Positions 5,803 to 41,355 of a stretch of DNA of 64,000 bases are shown here, piece after piece (position 1 is the first letter of the stretch; the number at the start of each line of letters is the position of its first letter). The notes under the pieces are model-generated. The model was not told where the DNA came from, made no database searches, and saw only the letters and a list, made by a program, of their open reading frames with translations. Position numbers and translations under genes: made by a program. Source of the stretch: Sphaerochaeta globosa str. Buddy (GTDB lineage Bacteria; Spirochaetota; Spirochaetia; Sphaerochaetales; Sphaerochaetaceae); NCBI RefSeq assembly GCF_000190435.1, contig NC_015152.1, positions 1,618,458-1,682,457 of the forward strand, in the 5' to 3' direction.

Positions 5803-7008
5803 CTATTTTCCAAAGGCAAGCTTGCCATCTACAACGACTTCCCAGGGAAGACCCATTTTCCCGAGTTCTGCAAGGAACGGGTCGGGGTCAAACTGCTCCA
5901 TGTTCCATACCCCTGGTGCATTCCAAATTCCTCTTGCAACCAAACTGGCACCAAGGGCTGCAGGAACTCCTGTGGTATAGGAGACTGCCTGTGCTTTGGT
6001 ATCCTGATAAGCCATCTGATGACTGCAGTTGTTGAAAATAAAAAAGGTGCGTTCCTTTCCATCCTTCACTCCCCTGATCTGACAACCGATGGAAGTCTGG
6101 CCTTGATAGTTGGGGCCAAGCGAGGAAGGCTCGGGAAGCACTGCCTTCAGGAACTGAAGAGGTTGTATTTCCATACCCTGATACTCGATCGGTTTGATAC
6201 TAGTCATGCCGACCTCCTCAAGGACCCTCAAAAAGGTGATGTATTGCTGACTGAACGTCATCCAGAAGCGGGCACGCTTGAGGGTGGGGTAATGCATCAC
6301 CAGTGATTCCAGTTCTTCGTGGAAGAGGAGATAGCTCTCCTTCGAACCTACCCGCGGATAGTCTACATTCTGGTGAATTTCTAGCGGTTCTGTTTCCAGC
6401 CACTCACCCTTCTCATAATACTTTCCGTTCTGGGTAATTTCCCGTATATTTATTTCTGGATTGAAGTTGGTTGCAAAACTCTTGCCATGGTCGCCGGCAT
6501 TGCAATCTACAATATCAAGATAGTGCATCTCGTCAAAGTAATGCTTGGCGGCATACGAGGTAAACACATTGGTTACCCCGGGGTCGAAACCCGAGCCAAG
6601 CAGAGCGGTCAAGCCGGCCTTTTCAAATTTTTCCCTGAATGCCCATTGCCACGAGTATTCAAAATGCGCCACATCTTTGGGTTCGTAGTTTGCAGTATCC
6701 ACATAGTGCACTCCACACTCCAGGCAGGCCTGCATAATAGTAAGGTCCTGATACGGAAGGGCTACATTGAGCAATACATCCGCCTTGAAATTCCTGATAA
6801 GGGAAACAAGGGCTTGCACATCGTCTGCATCCACCTCTGCTGTGCGGATGGGAACAGGTCCTGCTTCCTTGGCGATGGCGTCACACTTTGCCTTGGTTCT
6901 GCTGGCGAGCAATATCTCTTCATAGAGGTCTTCCATGCGTGCGGACTTGCGCACTGCAACATTGCCAACTCCCCCAGCACCAATAATTATCAATCGTTTC
7001 TTGTTCAT
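5803..7008 (-). CDS. Carboxy(nor)spermidine dehydrogenase (saccharopine dehydrogenase family)
   Basis: 401 residues. The Rossmann motif GAGGVGNVAV is at residues 10-19, followed by the saccharopine dehydrogenase-like segment GSGFDPGVTNVFTSYA near residue 138. The enzyme condenses putrescine (or diaminopropane) with aspartate semialdehyde and reduces the imine with NADPH. Function is assigned from family and from position directly before nspC. AGGAG precedes the ATG and the gene begins 4 bases after speA ends. Confidence 0.88.
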   Translation of the reverse strand: MNKKRLIIIGAGGVGNVAVRKSARMEDLYEEILLASRTKAKCDAIAKEAGPVPIRTAEVDADDVQALVSLIRNFKADVLLNVALPYQDLTIMQACLECGVHYVDTANYEPKDVAHFEYSWQWAFREKFEKAGLTALLGSGFDPGVTNVFTSYAAKHYFDEMHYLDIVDCNAGDHGKSFATNFNPEINIREITQNGKYYEKGEWLETEPLEIHQNVDYPRVGSKESYLLFHEELESLVMHYPTLKRARFWMTFSQQYITFLRVLEEVGMTSIKPIEYQGMEIQPLQFLKAVLPEPSSLGPNYQGQTSIGCQIRGVKDGKERTFFIFNNCSHQMAYQDTKAQAVSYTTGVPAALGASLVARGIWNAPGVWNMEQFDPDPFLAELGKMGLPWEVVVDGKLAFGK

Positions 7009-7011
7009 CCC

Positions 7012-8925
7012 TTACTCCTCTTGGTCGGTCTCGTAATAGGTATACCCCCTCAAGCCAGCAGTATAGGCTGAGATGATCCGTCTTCTTTCCTGTACCGTAA
7101 TCCTACCCTCTTGTACTGCCTTTTCCGCCTTGGTACGAATCATGGCCTCAAGGCGTTTCGGCTCATACTCCACGTAGCTGAGCACATCGGCAACCGTATC
7201 CCCTTCCAGCTCATTGTGCAAACTGAATGTTCCATCGTCATCATACGTGATGGAAACTACATTGGTATCCCCAAGCAGGTTGTGCAAATCCCCTAAAGTC
7301 TCCTGATAAGCCCCCACCAAGAAAACACCTAGAATGTAATCCTCATCTTCTGTCAGGCTGTGAAGCGGCAAGGTGTTGGAGACGCCTGAGCTGGTAATGA
7401 ACTTGTCGATTTTTCCTTCGCTATCACAGGTGATATCGGACAATACCGCCTTGCGTTCCGGTTTGGTATCCAAACGATGGATCGGCATAATGGGAAACAT
7501 CTGGTCGATGGCCCATACATCGGGAAGCGATTGGAACAAGCTGAAATTCCCGTAATAGATATCGGAAAGTTGGTGCTCCAGCTTCTGTATTTCGGAAGAG
7601 TGAATATCGCCATACTTTTGCTGGATCTCAGCGATGATCGACCAATATACATGTTCTGCAGCGGCCCGCTCGCGCATGTTCACCTTGCCGTACAAAAATT
7701 TATTGCGATTTTCCTCGCGATAATAATTCAAGTCATTCAGACATTCCTGGGCATTCTTTTCGTTGAGCATGGTCCGTACATACAAGAGGTTCTCCAAGGC
7801 GGGCATCATAGCATCGTCGTAGACATCCTCTTCGCTGTTCTTCCCATCCCAGAATACATTGGTATCGAGAATGTTCATCAACAGAACCGAATAGTAGGAG
7901 ACAAGAGCCCTTCCCGACTCACTGATGAGCGTTGGATGGGGAATGTTTTCTTCCTTGCAGATGGTCATGATTTCCTCAACCACGTCATCACAATACTCTT
8001 TGGTTGAATAGTTTCGACTGTTTGAACTGTTTGAGTGACTGCCATCATAATCGATGGCCAAGCCGCCTCCCATATCCAACAATCCCATGGCAGCACCTTC
8101 GTGTACCAACCCTGCATAGAACCGAGCGGCTTCGGTTGCGCCGACACGAATATCGTGAATGTTGGGAATTTGGCTTCCCAGATGGTAGTGCAACAGTTTC
8201 AGGCAATCCAACATATTCTCTTTGCGAAGCCGGTCTACAACTTGGACGACCTGCGTGGTATTCAGTCCGAAAACGCTGCGGTCCCCACCGCTGTCCGTCC
8301 AATGGCCGCTTGCCATGGTTGAGGGTTTCATACGTAGGCCGATGTTCGGCTTAATACCCAACGCCCGTGATCGCTGGAGGATGATCCCGACTTCTCCGGG
8401 CATTTCCACAACCAGCACAGTCTGAATACCCAGTTGCAATCCTTTGAGCGCAAGATCTATATACTCTTCATCCTTATACCCATTGCAAATGACATACGCC
8501 TCAGGATCATCAATATGGGCCAAGGCTATAATGAGTTCGGCTTTGCTGCCGGTTTCCAACCCATGATGGTACTGCTGCCCATATTTGCAAATTTCCTCGA
8601 CTACCTGTTGTTGTTGGTTCACCTTTATCGGATACACACCGCGATAGGTTCCCTGGTATCCGGCATCCTTGATTGCATTCAGGAAACTCTCATTGATATG
8701 CTGGATGCGGTCATCCAAAATATTGGAAAAACGAAGGAGAACGGGAAGTTTCATCCCTCGTTCCTGCAGCCCCTTGGCGATGGAGAGCAAGCTTATGGAG
8801 GACTGTGGTGACTTGTCCTTCAACCTTACTTCTACTTCCCCGGTATCTGCTATATGGAAATAGCCGTTTCCCCAATCATTGATTCGGTATAGCTTTTCTG
8901 CATCTTTGATTTTCCAGTTCTGCAT
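7012..8925 (-). CDS. speA: Biosynthetic arginine decarboxylase
   Basis: 637 residues, the usual length of SpeA. The PLP-lysine segment GVYPIKVNQQQQVVEEI is near residues 98-114, followed by LLHYHLGSQIPNI, the glycine-rich LLDMGGGLAIDYDGS and a late SESGRALVS. It converts arginine to agmatine in the cytoplasm. First gene of a four-gene operon that continues with carboxynorspermidine dehydrogenase, nspC and agmatinase. AGGGAG lies 6 bases before the ATG, and an extended -10 promoter lies upstream. Confidence 0.95.
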   Translation of the reverse strand: MQNWKIKDAEKLYRINDWGNGYFHIADTGEVEVRLKDKSPQSSISLLSIAKGLQERGMKLPVLLRFSNILDDRIQHINESFLNAIKDAGYQGTYRGVYPIKVNQQQQVVEEICKYGQQYHHGLETGSKAELIIALAHIDDPEAYVICNGYKDEEYIDLALKGLQLGIQTVLVVEMPGEVGIILQRSRALGIKPNIGLRMKPSTMASGHWTDSGGDRSVFGLNTTQVVQVVDRLRKENMLDCLKLLHYHLGSQIPNIHDIRVGATEAARFYAGLVHEGAAMGLLDMGGGLAIDYDGSHSNSSNSRNYSTKEYCDDVVEEIMTICKEENIPHPTLISESGRALVSYYSVLLMNILDTNVFWDGKNSEEDVYDDAMMPALENLLYVRTMLNEKNAQECLNDLNYYREENRNKFLYGKVNMRERAAAEHVYWSIIAEIQQKYGDIHSSEIQKLEHQLSDIYYGNFSLFQSLPDVWAIDQMFPIMPIHRLDTKPERKAVLSDITCDSEGKIDKFITSSGVSNTLPLHSLTEDEDYILGVFLVGAYQETLGDLHNLLGDTNVVSITYDDDGTFSLHNELEGDTVADVLSYVEYEPKRLEAMIRTKAEKAVQEGRITVQERRRIISAYTAGLRGYTYYETDQEE

Positions 8926-16380: not shown

Positions 16381-17229
16381 TCATTCGTACACACCTCCAA
16401 GGTAGGCTATGAGCTTTTCGATGGTCATCGGAGCACTTCCCTCGTAGTGATTATTCACATTGATGTACACCACCCTGCCCTCTTTGGCAAGCGCAACAAT
16501 TTTGGGTGCGATACTTGCCAATTCATCATCCTTGTTCTTGACAATACGGTTCCAGATTCCCCCGGTTTCCTGTTCAATTCCAGAACGGTCATCACCATGA
16601 AGTCGGATGCACAGCGTATCCCCTTTTGATTGTTCAAACAGCTGCAAGGTTGTAAGCGGGTTCTCCATCCAATATCCGGATAAAAGCACAGGAGCAATCT
16701 TCTGCGTGTGAAGAAATTCAAACCACGATGAATCGATCCAGTTGGGATTGCGTATCTCTACGGCATACGCAAGGGAATCAGGGAGCATGCCTAGGAATGT
16801 CTGTAGCTTCTGCTCGAACACCTTTCGCTCATGGATGGCTTTTTGATTGAGGTAAGCAAACTGGAACATGAAGAGCCCCACTTTCGAAACCAAGGGGCCC
16901 AAGCGTTCAAGAAAGCGATAAAATACCTCTGCATCCAAAAACCATGGGTTCATCGCTTCTGTTGATCCATAGGCGAACGGCAATGTCAGTGCGTTGGGGC
17001 ATTTGATGGTGAAACGAAATTGTTCTGGGGTAGCTTGGTCATAGCTAAGAACAGTTGCCGGGTCAGGCAAGCCGTAACTTTGCTTTCCCAGAGACCAGAA
17101 CCATTGGTCGACTTCAACAGAACGGTAGTGTTTTGCATACTGGGCAAGCAGGTCTTCGTTGCTGAACGAATCATAGACCATGCCTTCCCAACTGGTATAT
17201 TTCCATGAACAGGTACCAATATAGATCAT
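16381..17229 (-). CDS. DUF72 (YecE-like) protein
   Basis: 282 residues. IYIGTCSWKYTSWEGMVYD at the N-terminus, YAVEIRNPNW in the middle and LCIRLHGDD later are DUF72 hallmarks (TIM-barrel fold, function unknown). A second DUF72 gene sits at 35127 beside DNA-damage genes; the two are divergent in sequence. TACAGT lies five bases before the start codon and there is no Shine-Dalgarno. Confidence 0.85.
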   Translation of the reverse strand: MIYIGTCSWKYTSWEGMVYDSFSNEDLLAQYAKHYRSVEVDQWFWSLGKQSYGLPDPATVLSYDQATPEQFRFTIKCPNALTLPFAYGSTEAMNPWFLDAEVFYRFLERLGPLVSKVGLFMFQFAYLNQKAIHERKVFEQKLQTFLGMLPDSLAYAVEIRNPNWIDSSWFEFLHTQKIAPVLLSGYWMENPLTTLQLFEQSKGDTLCIRLHGDDRSGIEQETGGIWNRIVKNKDDELASIAPKIVALAKEGRVVYINVNNHYEGSAPMTIEKLIAYLGGVYE

Positions 17230-35085: not shown

Positions 35086-35114
35086 TTCCTCTTGATTACT
35101 TAACATATATATAG

Positions 35115-35120
35115 TATATC
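35115..35120 (+). promoter_or_regulatory. Possible -10 box six bases before the DUF72 start
   Basis: TATATC, then six bases, then ATG 35127. TAGTAT three bases earlier is an alternative -10. No Shine-Dalgarno is present. Confidence 0.35.
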
Positions 35121-35126
35121 TGAAGT

Positions 35127-35954
35127 ATGAGTACGATTCTGATAGGAACTTCAGGCTACAGCTATACCGAGTGGGTAGGCCCCGTGTATCCCAAGGGCAC
35201 CAAGAGTGAGGAGTTTCTCAGCTGCTATGCACAGCTATTTCCTACTGTGGAGCTGAACTTCAGCTACTACCGCATGCCCGAAGCCGCCCAACTTGCCTTG
35301 ATGCACCAAGGGGCTCCCTCTCTCAGGTTTTCCATCAAGGCCCATCAAAGTCTCACCCATGTCATCGATTCCCAACAGTGGAAAGAGATGGCAAGTTTGT
35401 TCCGCCGTTCTTTGGAGCCGTTGCTTACAAGCAATGTCCTGGACGCTGTACTCTTGCAGTTCCCTTCCTCCTTCCATTATGAAATCGATCAGAGAAAATA
35501 TTTGGACTCGTTACTCAGAGTCCTTTCTCCCCTACCCTTGGCGGTGGAATTTCGTAACAGCCAGTGGTACAACAACCGCACCCTGGATTCCCTACGCGAG
35601 AGGCAGGTCTCGTTTGTCTCTCTCGACCTTCCCCAAATCCAGGGTAATCCCCCGGTTATGGATGTCCCCACCTCATCGCTTGCCTACCTACGCCTGCATG
35701 GGAGAAACAAGGAGACCTGGTGGGGTTCCGATGCAGCAAGCAGATATGACTACCTGTACAGTGACAGTGAGTTGAAAGCCGTGCTGGAGCGGGTGCTCTC
35801 ACTGACGGTAGGAGCCAACAAAATCCTGGTGTACTTCAACAACCATCGCAGGGGACAGGCGGTTGCCAATGCCAAACGGCTCAGGGAACTGCTTGGTGCA
35901 AGCGGAGGTGAGGCATGCATGAGCGCGAAGCAAGCATTGTCCACATCAACATAA
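35127..35954 (+). CDS. DUF72 (YecE-like) protein, first gene of the mutasome-like cassette
   Basis: 275 residues. ILIGTSGYSYTEWVGPVYP, LAVEFRNSQWY and YLRLHGRN are DUF72 hallmarks. The fold resembles TIM-barrel enzymes, and the function is unknown. It overlaps the ImuB-like gene by 40 bases, so it is tied to the polymerase genes that follow. Its place at the head of the cassette, where other bacteria often have imuA, suggests a role in DNA damage tolerance. Confidence 0.87.
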   Translation: MSTILIGTSGYSYTEWVGPVYPKGTKSEEFLSCYAQLFPTVELNFSYYRMPEAAQLALMHQGAPSLRFSIKAHQSLTHVIDSQQWKEMASLFRRSLEPLLTSNVLDAVLLQFPSSFHYEIDQRKYLDSLLRVLSPLPLAVEFRNSQWYNNRTLDSLRERQVSFVSLDLPQIQGNPPVMDVPTSSLAYLRLHGRNKETWWGSDAASRYDYLYSDSELKAVLERVLSLTVGANKILVYFNNHRRGQAVANAKRLRELLGASGGEACMSAKQALSTST

Positions 35955-37093
35955 CCGACTTTGCAGCAGCGGTTGCGATTGCAAAGCAGCCGCGTCTTGC
36001 AAGCCGCCCGTTTGCGATCGCCCTTGAGGGTTCTGCAAGGCGGGTGATCATCACAGCTTCCCGCAAGGCTTGGGAAGAGGGAATCCGTGTCGGCATGCCG
36101 GTCAGTACAGCCCAACGCATGCTCCCCTCTTTGGAAGTGTTGCCTCCCGACCTCCAATCTGCGGCCAAGGCAGACAGTGCCATAGCCTCGCTGGTAGCAT
36201 CCTATTCACCTGATATCCAATGTGACAGGGGCGGGCATGTCTACCTCGATATGAAGGGAACGGGCCGCCTTTTCGGTCCGGTGGTGGACAGTGCCCTGCG
36301 TATCCGCAAAGAAATCCGCGAACAGCTTGGTCTTGAAGGAGCCGTTGCTGTTGCCTCCAACAAGCTGGTGGCAAAAATCGGAACCAGGGCGATAAGACCC
36401 TGCGGCCTTGCCCAAATCAGAGAGGGCGAGGAAGCTTCCTTTTTGGCCAGTCAGGATGTCAGTCTTCTGTCGGGGGTGGGAAATGCCATCGGGAGAATCC
36501 TGTCGGTTGCAGGTATCACCCAAATTGGGCAGATAGCCGCTTTGGACGACAATCAGGTCATCGCTTTCTTGGGCAGACGGGGCCTTGCACTGCGGGATGC
36601 CGCCCGGGGACTAGACACCTCTTCGCTGCAAAAAGGGGCGATGAACAAGCGCTGTTTCACCAGAAAGGTCAATTTTGCAGAGCCAATTCTCAATCTTGAG
36701 GAACTCAAGGCTGCCCTTGTCGCCTCAGCCGAGGATGCAGCCTTGCAGATGCGGCAAGAAGCCATGGGTTGCCAAGCAGTCCAGGTTATTCTTTTCTGGA
36801 GCGACGGACGAACAAGTGAGGCCACCAAACGTACCAAGGGCCAGTGGCTGTACGACCATGAGATCGAGAGCGAGCTCTTCGGCGCTGCACTACAGGCGCT
36901 GGGACGCAGAGTCAGGCTTTTGGCCTTCACCATCAAGCTCTTCGACATAAGCCCTGCACTAAAGCAGACCGATTTGTTCATACCCGAGATTTTGCACAAG
37001 AGAGAATCACTGCAACACACAATCGACGAGGTACGCCAGAAGTTCGGACCGGGCATCCTCACCCATGCAACGGCGCTGTATCATGGAAACTAG
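35915..37093 (+). CDS. ImuB-like Y-family polymerase homologue, catalytically dead
   Basis: 392 residues with Y-family architecture. All three catalytic acids are replaced: where active enzymes have HIDMDAFF the protein has HINITDF (Asn12, Thr14), and where they have IDEAYLD it has GGHVYLD (Gly107, His108). This matches ImuB, a non-catalytic scaffold of the ImuB-DnaE2 mutasome. QTDLF (351-355) is a canonical beta-clamp binding pentapeptide. GGAGG lies six bases before the ATG. It overlaps the dnaE2-like gene by 11 bases. Confidence 0.85.
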   Translation: MHEREASIVHINITDFAAAVAIAKQPRLASRPFAIALEGSARRVIITASRKAWEEGIRVGMPVSTAQRMLPSLEVLPPDLQSAAKADSAIASLVASYSPDIQCDRGGHVYLDMKGTGRLFGPVVDSALRIRKEIREQLGLEGAVAVASNKLVAKIGTRAIRPCGLAQIREGEEASFLASQDVSLLSGVGNAIGRILSVAGITQIGQIAALDDNQVIAFLGRRGLALRDAARGLDTSSLQKGAMNKRCFTRKVNFAEPILNLEELKAALVASAEDAALQMRQEAMGCQAVQVILFWSDGRTSEATKRTKGQWLYDHEIESELFGAALQALGRRVRLLAFTIKLFDISPALKQTDLFIPEILHKRESLQHTIDEVRQKFGPGILTHATALYHGN

Positions 37094-39995
37094 ACTCGCC
37101 TTGACTACCAGCTATTCCCTGCTCTGGGGCACCATGCAGCCGAATAGGCTTTTCGACCAACTCAAGCAGTGGAATGTAGGCAAAGTAGCCATCACCGACC
37201 GGGACAGCCTGTGCGGCTATCCGGCATGTAGGGAAGAAGCACAACGATGCAACATAGAGTTAATCTGTGCTGCCTGCCTGACACAGGGAAGCGACACCCT
37301 CTACGCCTTTGTGCAAAGCCAGAAGGGGTATGAGAAACTCTGCCTGCTGCTTACCCAGCGGGCACAAGACCCTTCTTTTTCGTACCTTCCTTCCCTGCTC
37401 AGAGAAAGCGACGGCCTAGTTCTTGCCACCACCAGTGCTGTTCTGCTCCATGCCTTTGCCCAAAAGAACCTGTTGGTGTATGCAGCCATAACCCCTTCCT
37501 GTCTCAAAGCCGTGCAGACTGCACGCCACCTTGCGCTTCCCCTTCTTGCCTGCGACGATGCACTCTTGTTGGAAAAAGAGGACAAGGAAGTCCATCGCAT
37601 CCTGCGTTGCATGGATTTGCACAAGACCGTGGGATCACTGCAGGAAGAGGATTGTGCAGCACAATGCAATGTCCTGCTCGATCCTGATCAATGGAATCAG
37701 GCTTTTTCCTGCTGGCCTGAGGCGGTGGATAACACAAACCTCCTTCAAGCGTACGACCCCTTCCCCTCTTCTCTCATTTTCCCCGAGTATCCGGTTGAGG
37801 ATGCGGCAAAGGAGCTGGAAGCACGAGTCCTGAAAGGGGCGGAAGTACGGTATGGGGAAGTAAACGACGCCATTATGGAGCGTATCACCTATGAGCTTGC
37901 CATCATCAGGGACAAGGGGTTTGCTCCCTACTTTTTGGTCATGCACGATATTGTACAAATGAGCAGCCGCACCTGTGGTCGCGGTTCGGGTGCCGCCTCC
38001 ATCGTTTCCTACTGCCTGTTCATTACCAATGTAGACCCTCTGGCCTACCACCTCTACTTTGAACGTTTTCTCTCCCCTTCCCGCCTCGACCCCCCGGATA
38101 TCGATGTCGATTTTGCCTGGGATGAGCGCGATGGTGTCTTTGCAGCGGTATTCGAACGCTTTGGGATTGACCACTGTGCACGGGTGGCCAATCACAACTG
38201 CTTCAGGCTGCGCGGGGCTGTCAGGGAAACCGGCCGTTGCTACGGTCTCAGTGACACACAAATCACCGAGGCCGAGAAGAAGCTGTTCATCAGCGGACAA
38301 AAAGACCTCGACGACCCCTTGTGGCAGACTATCTGCCGTATAGCAACAAAGCTTGAAGGCTTACCCAAGGAAATATCCATGCATTGCGGAGGATTGGTCA
38401 TCACACCTAAACCCGTACACTGTTATGCACCGCTGAGGCTCAGCAGTGATGGGTATCCCTTGCTTGCCTGGGAGAAGGAAGGAACCGAAATGGCAGGGTT
38501 TGTCAAAATCGACCTGCTGGGAAACCGCTCCCTTGCCGTCATCCGCGACACCCTGGAAAATCTTAAGGAAGAGGAACTCTCTATTGACCAGCGGCTGTGG
38601 CATCCCACTGAGGATGGGCCTACTATCGCAGCCCTAGAAAAAGGGGACTCGATGGGAGTTTTTTACATTGAATCGCCTGCGATGCGGCAGCTGCAGAAAA
38701 AGACCGGCCGTGGTGATTTCGAACATATTGTCATCCACTCCTCAATCATCCGTCCTGCGGCGAACAAGTTCATTGCCGAGTATGTTGAGCGCCTCAGGGG
38801 AAAAAAGTGGGAACCACTGCATCCAAGGCTCAGCTATATTCTGGATGAGACATACGGCATTCTCTGCTACCAGGAGGACGTATCCAAGACAGCAGTGGCC
38901 CTTGCCGGCTTCAATGAAGCCGATGCGGACAAACTGCGCAAAGTCATCGCCAAGAAAGCCGGCGGGGAGAAACTGCGTGTCTACCGCAAGCAGTTCTTCG
39001 ACGGCTGCAAGGCCAATGCCGTGAGTGAGCAAACAACCCAACAGATCTGGGAAATGATGCTCAGCTTCGACGGCTACTCTTTTTGCAAACCTCACTCAGC
39101 CTCCTATGCCATGGTCTCCTTTCAGAGTGCTTACCTCAGGGTTCACCACCCTTCCCATTTCATGGCCGCCGTTTTGTCCAACCAAGGCGGGTACTACCGT
39201 AGTCAAGCATATATAAGCGAGGCACGGAGAATGGGAATCAACGTTGAGGGACCCGATATCAATACGAGCAGGATCTGCTACCATGCCCAAGGTAACACCC
39301 TGTTCATCGGCCTGATGGCAATCGCAAACCTGAAGGAGCAGACTCGAATGCAGATACTGGCAGAAAGACGGAAAGGAGGATTGTTCTTTGACCTCAAGGA
39401 CGCTTCCACCCGATTGGACTTGTGCCGTGAGGATTGGGTATCCTTGGTGGAAAGTGGATGCTGCGACAGCCTTGGCCGTCAGTACCGGCGCAGTGAACAA
39501 TTGAGAATTTTGCTTACCAATGCAGAGCGAACGACACGTTCCGATCAGTTGGAGCTCTTTGCCCCTGAGAAACACATTCCTGGGCAAACACGCTCACTGG
39601 TACAGGTCAAACATACCGAGGACGAACTGCACCGAGAGTTTTCCGCTCTTGGTTTTTTGCGCTCCTACCACCCACTACTGCTTTGGTCGTCGTACCTGCA
39701 AGGTCTCAAACGTGTCAGGGCATCGGAACTGAGTCAGTATGTCGGACGCTATGTGAATCTAATCGGGTATCAGATCACCCAAAAACAGGTTATGACCAAA
39801 ACAGGAGAGAGCATGAGCTTTGTTTCCTTCGAGGATGAGACAGCGTTGTATGAAACGGTTCTCTTTCCCGACCTCTATCAACGCTTCTACCCCTTGCTTT
39901 CATCGCTGTGGCCTTTGGTGGTTTTTGGGTTAGTTCAGGACGACCAAGGCGCCTTGATCGTGGAAGTCCAGCACCTCAAGAAAGTTGGGAGTTGA
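37083..39995 (+). CDS. dnaE2: DnaE2-like error-prone DNA polymerase III alpha
   Basis: About 970 residues, C-family polymerase. Catalytic Asps are intact: PDIDVDF (Asp341, Asp343) and VKIDLLG (Asp477). GRGSGAASIVSY and KPHSASYAMVSFQSAYL are also typical. The PHP domain is degenerate, with no His-x-His at the N-terminus (LALTTSYSLLWG). A clamp motif QLELF is at 822-826 and an OB-fold region at the C-terminus. Its length and pairing with the ImuB-like protein mark it as the translesion DnaE2 form, not the replicative enzyme. The last 20 bases overlap the convergent photolyase. Confidence 0.87.
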   Translation: METRLALTTSYSLLWGTMQPNRLFDQLKQWNVGKVAITDRDSLCGYPACREEAQRCNIELICAACLTQGSDTLYAFVQSQKGYEKLCLLLTQRAQDPSFSYLPSLLRESDGLVLATTSAVLLHAFAQKNLLVYAAITPSCLKAVQTARHLALPLLACDDALLLEKEDKEVHRILRCMDLHKTVGSLQEEDCAAQCNVLLDPDQWNQAFSCWPEAVDNTNLLQAYDPFPSSLIFPEYPVEDAAKELEARVLKGAEVRYGEVNDAIMERITYELAIIRDKGFAPYFLVMHDIVQMSSRTCGRGSGAASIVSYCLFITNVDPLAYHLYFERFLSPSRLDPPDIDVDFAWDERDGVFAAVFERFGIDHCARVANHNCFRLRGAVRETGRCYGLSDTQITEAEKKLFISGQKDLDDPLWQTICRIATKLEGLPKEISMHCGGLVITPKPVHCYAPLRLSSDGYPLLAWEKEGTEMAGFVKIDLLGNRSLAVIRDTLENLKEEELSIDQRLWHPTEDGPTIAALEKGDSMGVFYIESPAMRQLQKKTGRGDFEHIVIHSSIIRPAANKFIAEYVERLRGKKWEPLHPRLSYILDETYGILCYQEDVSKTAVALAGFNEADADKLRKVIAKKAGGEKLRVYRKQFFDGCKANAVSEQTTQQIWEMMLSFDGYSFCKPHSASYAMVSFQSAYLRVHHPSHFMAAVLSNQGGYYRSQAYISEARRMGINVEGPDINTSRICYHAQGNTLFIGLMAIANLKEQTRMQILAERRKGGLFFDLKDASTRLDLCREDWVSLVESGCCDSLGRQYRRSEQLRILLTNAERTTRSDQLELFAPEKHIPGQTRSLVQVKHTEDELHREFSALGFLRSYHPLLLWSSYLQGLKRVRASELSQYVGRYVNLIGYQITQKQVMTKTGESMSFVSFEDETALYETVLFPDLYQRFYPLLSSLWPLVVFGLVQDDQGALIVEVQHLKKVGS

Positions 39996-41355
39996 GTCCT
40001 ATTTCCTTTTCGATGCGTGCAAGATAGCCACTCATGTTGAACTTTCGTTCCAAGCCCTTGTCGTTCATGTAGCGGATATTGCCGAAGATCGGGCGTTCAG
40101 CCCATGGCCGGTCATGCTTGCCGAAGCACCAGGCGACTCCTGCATAACCATTGGGATCGCGTCCGTCCATCTGATAGGTGTTGTTCAGAGCCAAGGCACG
40201 CATGAAGGCTTCCTTGGGGGAAGGGCTCCATTCAAGAATTTTCTTTCCCCAGTACATACGCAGATAATTGTGCATGGTACCCAGTTCAGTGAGTTCCTTC
40301 TGGGCTGCATTCCAATACGGGTCGTGTGTTTGAGCCTGTTCCAGTTCTGCGAAGGAATACAGAATTGGGCGTCTGTCCTGTTCGTGGAAGGCAAGGCTCT
40401 TCTGTGCCCAGGAGGGCAACCCCTCATAGGCATCATACAGGGGATTGAACCAAACAAAGTTATAGGCGAGTTCCCGCCTCACAATGAGTTCCTCCAAAAA
40501 GACGGGGACGTCCTCAACCTCGATTTCCCTCACAGCGTGGTAGATATCGATTGCGCTTATCTGTCCAAAGTGCAGATAGGGGCTGAGACCGGAACTGAAT
40601 TGCTGTGAAGGATCATTACGGTGTATTGCGTAACCACTCAGTTTTGACTCAATGAACTGGGAAAGTTTTTGATGGGCTTGGATTTCTCCCCCGACCAAGT
40701 GAGGACATACACCGCCCATCTTGCCTAAAGCAAGTGCTTTCAACACCATGGCGGTGTCACCAAGGTTGACACAGGCGAACAGGGGTTCCTCAGACAGTCC
40801 ATCCACCAGAGGCTTTTGGATTGCAACAATCTGGGCGAAGTATGCGATCATGCTCTCAATCTTGCGCCTGAGCGTTGCAGCCGAATATTCCTCTTTGTCC
40901 GAAACAGCTTCAAGAGGGACTATTACATTGGTCTCGACTTCATAGAAAGGACAGGAAACAAACGAAGCAACTTGTTTGCGCCACTGCCGCTCGACTCTGG
41001 TATAGGCCCGGTCGGTCACCAATACACTGATAAAGGGTACGAGTTTAGCAAGGCCTGGTATGATTCCATCACCATGCACCCAAAGGGGAATGCCCAGCAA
41101 ACGCAGTTGCTGCTGTACTTCAGCAAGTCCTTCAAGCATGAACCGATAGTGCCGCTCTTGTGCACCGGCAAAGCTTCGTTCCAACCCGAAAAAGACTACC
41201 AGGGGTTTGCCCAATGCATTGGCTTGCTCGATTGCGAATGCAAGTGCTTCGTTCTGCCTTACGCGCTGGGCGGCTTGCATCCAGTACACGACAAAAGAGC
41301 CAGCTTTATTGACCGGCATAGAAGACAACAAGGTAATTCTTTGGGACTCGATCAT
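39976..41355 (-). CDS. phr: Class II CPD photolyase
   Basis: 459 residues. MHNYLRMYWGKKILEW and NNTYQMDGRDPNGYAGVAW in the C-terminal FAD domain are diagnostic of class II photolyases. It splits UV-induced cyclobutane dimers using light and FADH-. It faces the dnaE2-like gene, making a DNA-damage block. The start ATG is six bases after TGGTATGCT (extended -10) with no Shine-Dalgarno. A start 12 codons further in (MPVNKAGS) is possible. Confidence 0.93.
   Translation of the reverse strand: MIESQRITLLSSMPVNKAGSFVVYWMQAAQRVRQNEALAFAIEQANALGKPLVVFFGLERSFAGAQERHYRFMLEGLAEVQQQLRLLGIPLWVHGDGIIPGLAKLVPFISVLVTDRAYTRVERQWRKQVASFVSCPFYEVETNVIVPLEAVSDKEEYSAATLRRKIESMIAYFAQIVAIQKPLVDGLSEEPLFACVNLGDTAMVLKALALGKMGGVCPHLVGGEIQAHQKLSQFIESKLSGYAIHRNDPSQQFSSGLSPYLHFGQISAIDIYHAVREIEVEDVPVFLEELIVRRELAYNFVWFNPLYDAYEGLPSWAQKSLAFHEQDRRPILYSFAELEQAQTHDPYWNAAQKELTELGTMHNYLRMYWGKKILEWSPSPKEAFMRALALNNTYQMDGRDPNGYAGVAWCFGKHDRPWAERPIFGNIRYMNDKGLERKFNMSGYLARIEKEIGLNSQLS

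Follow-up and report, generated by a model that had tools for sequence, protein, structure and literature searches.

A DUF72-containing cassette with an inactive Y-family protein and a DnaE2-type polymerase in Sphaerochaeta globosa: a probable RecA-dependent translesion system

In the window analysed here, a stretch of 64,000 nucleotides from the genome of Sphaerochaeta globosa str. Buddy (one contig, 3.3 Mb), three overlapping genes encode a DUF72 protein, an inactive protein of the Y family of DNA polymerases (iPolY) and a DnaE2-type polymerase of the C family. We consider it fairly probable that they form a RecA-dependent, probably damage-inducible translesion cassette, in which DUF72 is an ancestral, dispensable accessory, most likely an enzyme that binds DNA or processes lesions. 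The original prediction had described a mutasome-like cassette where DUF72 takes the place of ImuA; the conserved mutasome-like arrangement, with DUF72 as a regular member and without ImuA, stands, but the substitution itself does not.

Gene order and distribution of the cassette

All three genes lie on the forward strand. The first one (35127..35954) encodes a DUF72 protein of 275 amino acids (PF01904, E 7e-59), for which AlphaFold and Foldseek indicate a TIM barrel and in which the family-invariant residues are intact. The second (35915..37093) encodes iPolY, an inactive, Pol IV-like Y-family protein of 392 amino acids (PF00817, E 4e-28; the IMS_C match is weak). The third (37083..39995) encodes the polymerase, 970 amino acids long if counted from Met7 and 976 if counted from the ATG at 37065. 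The DUF72 and iPolY genes overlap by exactly 40 bases, and the overlap between iPolY and dnaE is 11 bases for the start at ATG 37083 (Met7) or 29 bases for the start at ATG 37065. As Met7 is nearly invariant among the relatives, and two of them (L042, L045) have no ATG at the upstream position, the start yielding the 11-base overlap is probably the correct one. The overlaps of 40 and 11 bases, as originally predicted, agree with the open reading frames and family matches.

Among 61 sampled Sphaerochaetales genomes, 13 contain iPolY, the same 13 contain the cassette-type DUF72, and the order DUF72-iPolY-DnaE is observed in all of them. Within the family this order is kept down to 44-60% protein identity. 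A scan with the iPolY alignment against genomes of 84,980 species left 80 loci, which are mutually related and hence do not represent 80 independent events. In 54 of these, DUF72 is directly upstream of iPolY, and the Y-family active site is inactivated in every one; DnaE follows in 50, the other four contigs showing none. The loci with an intact Y-family site (n = 20) contain DUF72 in no case and DnaE in one. The remaining inactive loci comprise three with DnaE but without DUF72 and three with neither. These DUF72-iPolY cassettes occur in Spirochaetota, Desulfobacterota and Planctomycetota, and a further one, in addition to the 54, is located on a plasmid of Desulfosarcina ovata. As a check made without the cassette as its starting point, we drew 40 Desulfobacteria genomes evenly and obtained 21 DUF72 genes in 16 genomes; nine of these genes abut a same-strand Y-family gene, and a tenth is approximately 2.5 kb away from one, with two genes between. 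As the order is conserved within the family, across phyla and in the Desulfobacteria sample, we rejected chance or an artefact of a single strain. The survey of genomes called for by the original prediction thus recovers the predicted order well beyond this strain.

Nor is an imuA gene present elsewhere in the S. globosa genome, where the only matches to PF00154 are RecA and a RadA-like protein below the cutoff. The ImuA model reached its cutoff in none of the 61 Sphaerochaetales genomes.

Several observations concern particular contigs. One locus (L069) is on a contig labelled as a Burkholderiaceae metagenome-assembled genome and shows 99-100% protein identity to genome G036 of the Sphaerochaeta group; the contig was probably mis-binned. 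On three predicted viral contigs from IMG/VR (L197, L198, L201) a cassette-type DUF72 is divergent from a repressor with helix-turn-helix and S24 domains; L197 and L198 also carry iPolY and DnaE, and the contig of L201 is cut. The iPolY profile scan of IMG/VR yielded nothing that was confirmed by tblastn, yet iPolY is present beside DUF72 on contigs found via DUF72, hence the scan missed some copies. PADLOC gave no match, and an anti-phage defence system was rejected. A literature search covering open-licence papers found no earlier report of the DUF72-iPolY-dnaE cassette.

The Y-family protein, the polymerase and the upstream region

The predicted loss of all catalytic acids in the Y-family protein, together with retention of a clamp motif, was confirmed by comparison with relatives and Pol IV. 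Asn12, Thr14, Gly107 and His108 of iPolY align with the Asp, Asp and Asp-Glu of active Pol IV relatives; Asn12, Gly107 and His108 are kept in 11 of 11 family relatives, and Thr14 in 10. The clamp-like motif QTDLF occupies residues 352-356, and nearly all relatives retain xDLF. In the structural model, all Y-family domains are followed, after the little finger and the clamp motif, by one short helix, and the ImuB-C domain is absent. iPolY matches the Pol IV of its own genome with E 1e-30 and four annotated ImuBs with E from 2e-9 to 8e-3; these ImuBs are 482-505 amino acids long. Since it lacks ImuB-C and is closer to Pol IV, its sequence does not support classing iPolY as a true ImuB. The C-terminal helix (approximately residues 358-380) is similar to the RecA N-terminal motif (RecA-NT) described in Y-family partners of RecA (PMC6511836). 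Such a tail is observed in all full-length members; by shuffling, the RecA-NT match is significant for the iPolY of the window and for L095 and L134, and not for most others.

The cassette DnaE comprises PHP, pol3_alpha, finger, HhH and weak OB domains. Its catalytic aspartates D347, D349 and D483 are invariant among relatives and the clamp-like motif QLELF is present, so that both features predicted for the polymerase were recovered. The metal site of the PHP domain is degenerate, its histidines being lost (the domain starts with TRLALTTSYSLLWG, versus HLHNHTDFSLLDG in DnaE1 of the same genome). The genome contains two C-family polymerase genes, and the cassette protein has the properties by which DnaE2 is recognized: it is a second C-family polymerase beside DnaE1, without the C-terminal domain, with a degenerate PHP domain and with the catalytic aspartates retained. 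In the DnaE tree, which was built without named DnaE2B reference sequences, the cassette DnaEs form a single clade (support 99), apart from both DnaE1 and the ImuABC-type DnaE2 (DnaE2A).

Upstream of the DUF72 gene we observe a promoter-like block, kept in all 11 relatives of the Sphaerochaeta group that could be read. The probable promoter (35092..35120, +) consists of TTGATT (35092-35097), a 17-base spacer and TATATC (35115-35120); a sigma-70 consensus scan did not call it, and the assignment is based on conservation. As the ATG of the DUF72 gene is only 6 bases past the putative -10 hexamer, the message is likely to be leaderless. The spacer is occupied by an operator-like dyad of 18 bases, ACTTAACATATATATAGT (35098..35115, +), also recognized by conservation, which in related genera is the perfect palindrome ACTATAC-N4-GTATAGT. 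The pattern has one occurrence in the S. globosa genome, and nine of ten related genomes have no more than three such sites, one of them in front of the cassette. A search close to the starts of the S. globosa recA and lexA genes, with up to 4 mismatches allowed, recovered no copy. Outside the spirochaetes lexA is directly upstream in 29 of 31 cassettes, the one on the Desulfosarcina plasmid among them, and the other two (L105, L107) have little or no contig left upstream; the operons in Desulfobacterota start with lexA.

Direct ACATT repeats (TTTACATTGACATTTACATT) precede many Desulfobacterota lexA-DUF72-iPolY-dnaE operons (L095-L134) and are unlike the palindromic LexA box. At the other end of the cassette, a class II-type photolyase gene (39976-41355, reverse strand) is convergent with dnaE and overlaps its end by 20 bases; this neighbourhood is common to most of the genus.

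DUF72 and its proposed role

The DUF72 protein scores 199.9 bits against PF01904 (cutoff 25.3), and its AlphaFold model is a confident TIM barrel (mean confidence score, pLDDT, 93). The best Foldseek match of the model is 1vpq, TM1631 of Thermotoga maritima (E 6e-26, 38% identity); the Z score of the model to 1vpq is 32.8. Residues G7, Y21, E42, Y48, K71, T77, H78, Q111, E141, R143, W147, R189, H191, Y211, N238 and N239, invariant in the family, are kept in both cassette and non-cassette members. Those invariant in cassette DUF72s (E42, K71, Q111, E141, D167, R189/H191, N238/N239) are situated at or just past the strand ends in the model, as expected for a working barrel active site. Outside DUF72, UV-damage endonuclease (Z 14.5) and endonuclease IV (Z 13.5) rank among the nearest folds. 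The family is widespread: 9 of 14 control genomes, those of E. coli and B. subtilis among them, encode a member; in the DUF72 tree the cassette members group together (94/90). A second, distant paralogue (DUF72b) is encoded in the window at 16381-17229 on the reverse strand, approximately 18 kb from the cassette, and it occurs together with the cassette DUF72 in the same 13 Sphaerochaetales genomes, often 6-25 kb apart.

DUF72 is not always retained in the cassette. Three further Desulfobacteria genomes (L225, L226, L227) have lexA-iPolY-dnaE without DUF72, and an ImuA-like gene is absent beside these sister cassettes as well. In the DnaE tree they are scattered, together with the likewise DUF72-less L121, inside the Desulfobacteria part of the cassette clade, hence several losses of DUF72 are probable. 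DUF72 is also lacking from the two deepest branches of this clade (L109, L113). Vice versa, two Desulfobacteria genomes retain DUF72 next to lexA (L229) or to what remains of it (L228), without polymerase genes there. In L087 (approximately 6200-7070) a transposase-like frame runs into a 5'-truncated iPolY and DUF72 is gone, so that this cassette is broken.

DUF72 is also paired with other translesion polymerases. On two Paraburkholderia plasmids we observe imuA-imuB-dnaE2-DUF72, with DUF72 following by 10-19 bases. As these DUF72s are separate from the cassette group in the tree, this pairing arose separately. On a metagenomic viral contig (L200, 4215-6792), an UmuD-like S24 peptidase, UmuC and DUF72 form an apparent operon, DUF72 starting 13 bases after umuC. 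A search for more viral contigs resembling L200 or the Paraburkholderia DUF72 recovered L200 itself only. Enrichment of DUF72 near polB2 has, in addition, been reported for archaea and bacteria (PMC11791011). Other sampled DUF72 genes have unrelated neighbours, such as sufB, and further ones have Ku, LigD or a DNA ligase at a distance of a few kb; in a Rhizobium phage (L202, 5001-6258) DUF72 overlaps a gene annotated as a DNA recombination-mediator protein. Since several sampled copies have no adjacent polymerase, membership of the family does not in itself imply a link to translesion synthesis, and the original generalization to all DUF72 proteins is not supported; the suggestion that DUF72 points to lesion handling is, at the same time, supported by the recurrent pairing with translesion polymerases.

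We propose that the dead, Pol IV-like iPolY would act as a scaffold, with its clamp-like motif binding the sliding clamp and its RecA-NT-like tail binding chromosomal RecA, and would recruit the DnaE2-type polymerase for bypass synthesis. Having lost the metal site of its PHP domain, this polymerase would have no proofreading by that domain. The role held by ImuA in imuA-imuB-dnaE2 would be taken by RecA and not by DUF72, while DUF72, with an intact barrel active site, would act on the lesion, the gap or the primer end before or during bypass. A lesion-processing role of DUF72 is our best guess, made from context; that the invariant K71 forms a Schiff base, e.g. at abasic sites, would be speculation.

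Several points weigh against the proposed cassette function. For single sequences the RecA-NT match has little statistical weight, though it is clear by position. No operator shared with recA or lexA was found near the starts of these genes in S. globosa, hence damage induction in this organism is putative. The absence of DUF72 from L121 and L225-L227 implies that it is not an essential subunit, and its co-occurrence with iPolY could by itself reflect lifestyle, as the unlinked DUF72b is present in the same 13 genomes. Finally, MbnB, a methanobactin enzyme (Z 15.4), and sugar isomerases rank as close to the DUF72 model as the repair enzymes do; a DNA substrate thus does not follow from the fold.

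If DUF72 substituted for ImuA, it would bind the Y-family protein and be needed for mutasome assembly. Its first position in the cassette, the lack of an encoded ImuA and the translation apparently coupled through the 40-base overlap would fit this role, but DUF72 coexists with ImuA in Paraburkholderia, ImuA-less cassettes without DUF72 are nested in the same clade, the TIM barrel is unrelated to RecA, and the RecA-NT-like tail suggests that iPolY has RecA as its partner (PMC6511836). We thus rejected the substitution, which appears very improbable. Even less credible is a functionless relic, degenerate or derived from a prophage. It is true that relatives are found on predicted viral contigs and a plasmid, and that the L087 copy is broken beside a transposase; however, the three genes are intact here and in 12 relatives, the catalytic residues are conserved down to approximately 50% identity, and the promoter block is conserved too.

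A stronger competitor, although still an unlikely one, is that DUF72 is an enzyme of metabolism or of general stress which only shares the LexA control of its operon and does not contribute directly to bypass. It would account for the loss of DUF72 while the polymerase genes remain, for the lexA-DUF72 pairs of L228 and L229, for the several DUF72 genes without repair neighbours and for a fold common to sugar isomerases. Nevertheless, the gene order is retained across phyla, and pairing with iPolY-DnaE, ImuABC and UmuDC, as well as with PolB2 (PMC11791011), exceeds what co-regulation readily explains. These pairings allow for a broader reading, which we hold tentatively and with less confidence than the cassette function itself: DUF72 may be a modular partner that serves translesion polymerases in general, having been recruited independently into the iPolY-DnaE2, ImuABC, UmuDC and PolB2 systems, and may process the lesion so that the damaged site is ready for bypass. 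If true, a widespread family of unknown role (PF01904) would thereby gain a function. The fixed place of DUF72 in a cross-phylum translesion operon, together with the two separate pairings, provides a defined test of DUF72 function.

Comparison with known systems

The proximity of DUF72 to polB2 and the type comprising an inactive PolY and DnaE2 have already been published. In the polB2 case (PMC11791011) DUF72 is also near a translesion polymerase, but one of the B family, and it is enriched to some degree and is not a fixed operon member. TM1631 (1vpq), which has family and fold in common with the cassette DUF72, was proposed computationally to be an endonuclease IV-like DNA-binding enzyme, and no polymerase context is described for it (PMC3828134).

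The imuA-imuB-dnaE2 mutasome is similar to the Sphaerochaeta cassette in having a dead Y-family protein and an accessory DnaE in an operon that is often linked to lexA. The cassette differs in the absence of ImuA and ImuB-C, in the polymerase, which belongs to another clade, and in the presence of DUF72.

In composition the cassette resembles the DnaE2B-iPolY-RecA systems (gbDinB2-type; PMC12926913, PMC6511836), which share the inactivated PolY, the clamp motif and the linked DnaE2-type polymerase, may also have the RecA-NT-like tail in common with it, and likewise have neither ImuA nor ImuB-C. In such ImuA-less systems RecA itself is expected to fill the place of ImuA (PMC6511836, PMC12926913). 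Given the RecA-NT-like tail and the absence of ImuA, the Sphaerochaeta cassette appears to fit this published type of inactive PolY, DnaE2 and RecA. In the main text of these publications DUF72 does not appear, whereas the Sphaerochaeta cassette has it; hence ImuA-less mutasomes can carry a further accessory not listed in the published classification, and DUF72, as far as gene content and phylogeny indicate, is an addition to this type and not a stand-in for ImuA.

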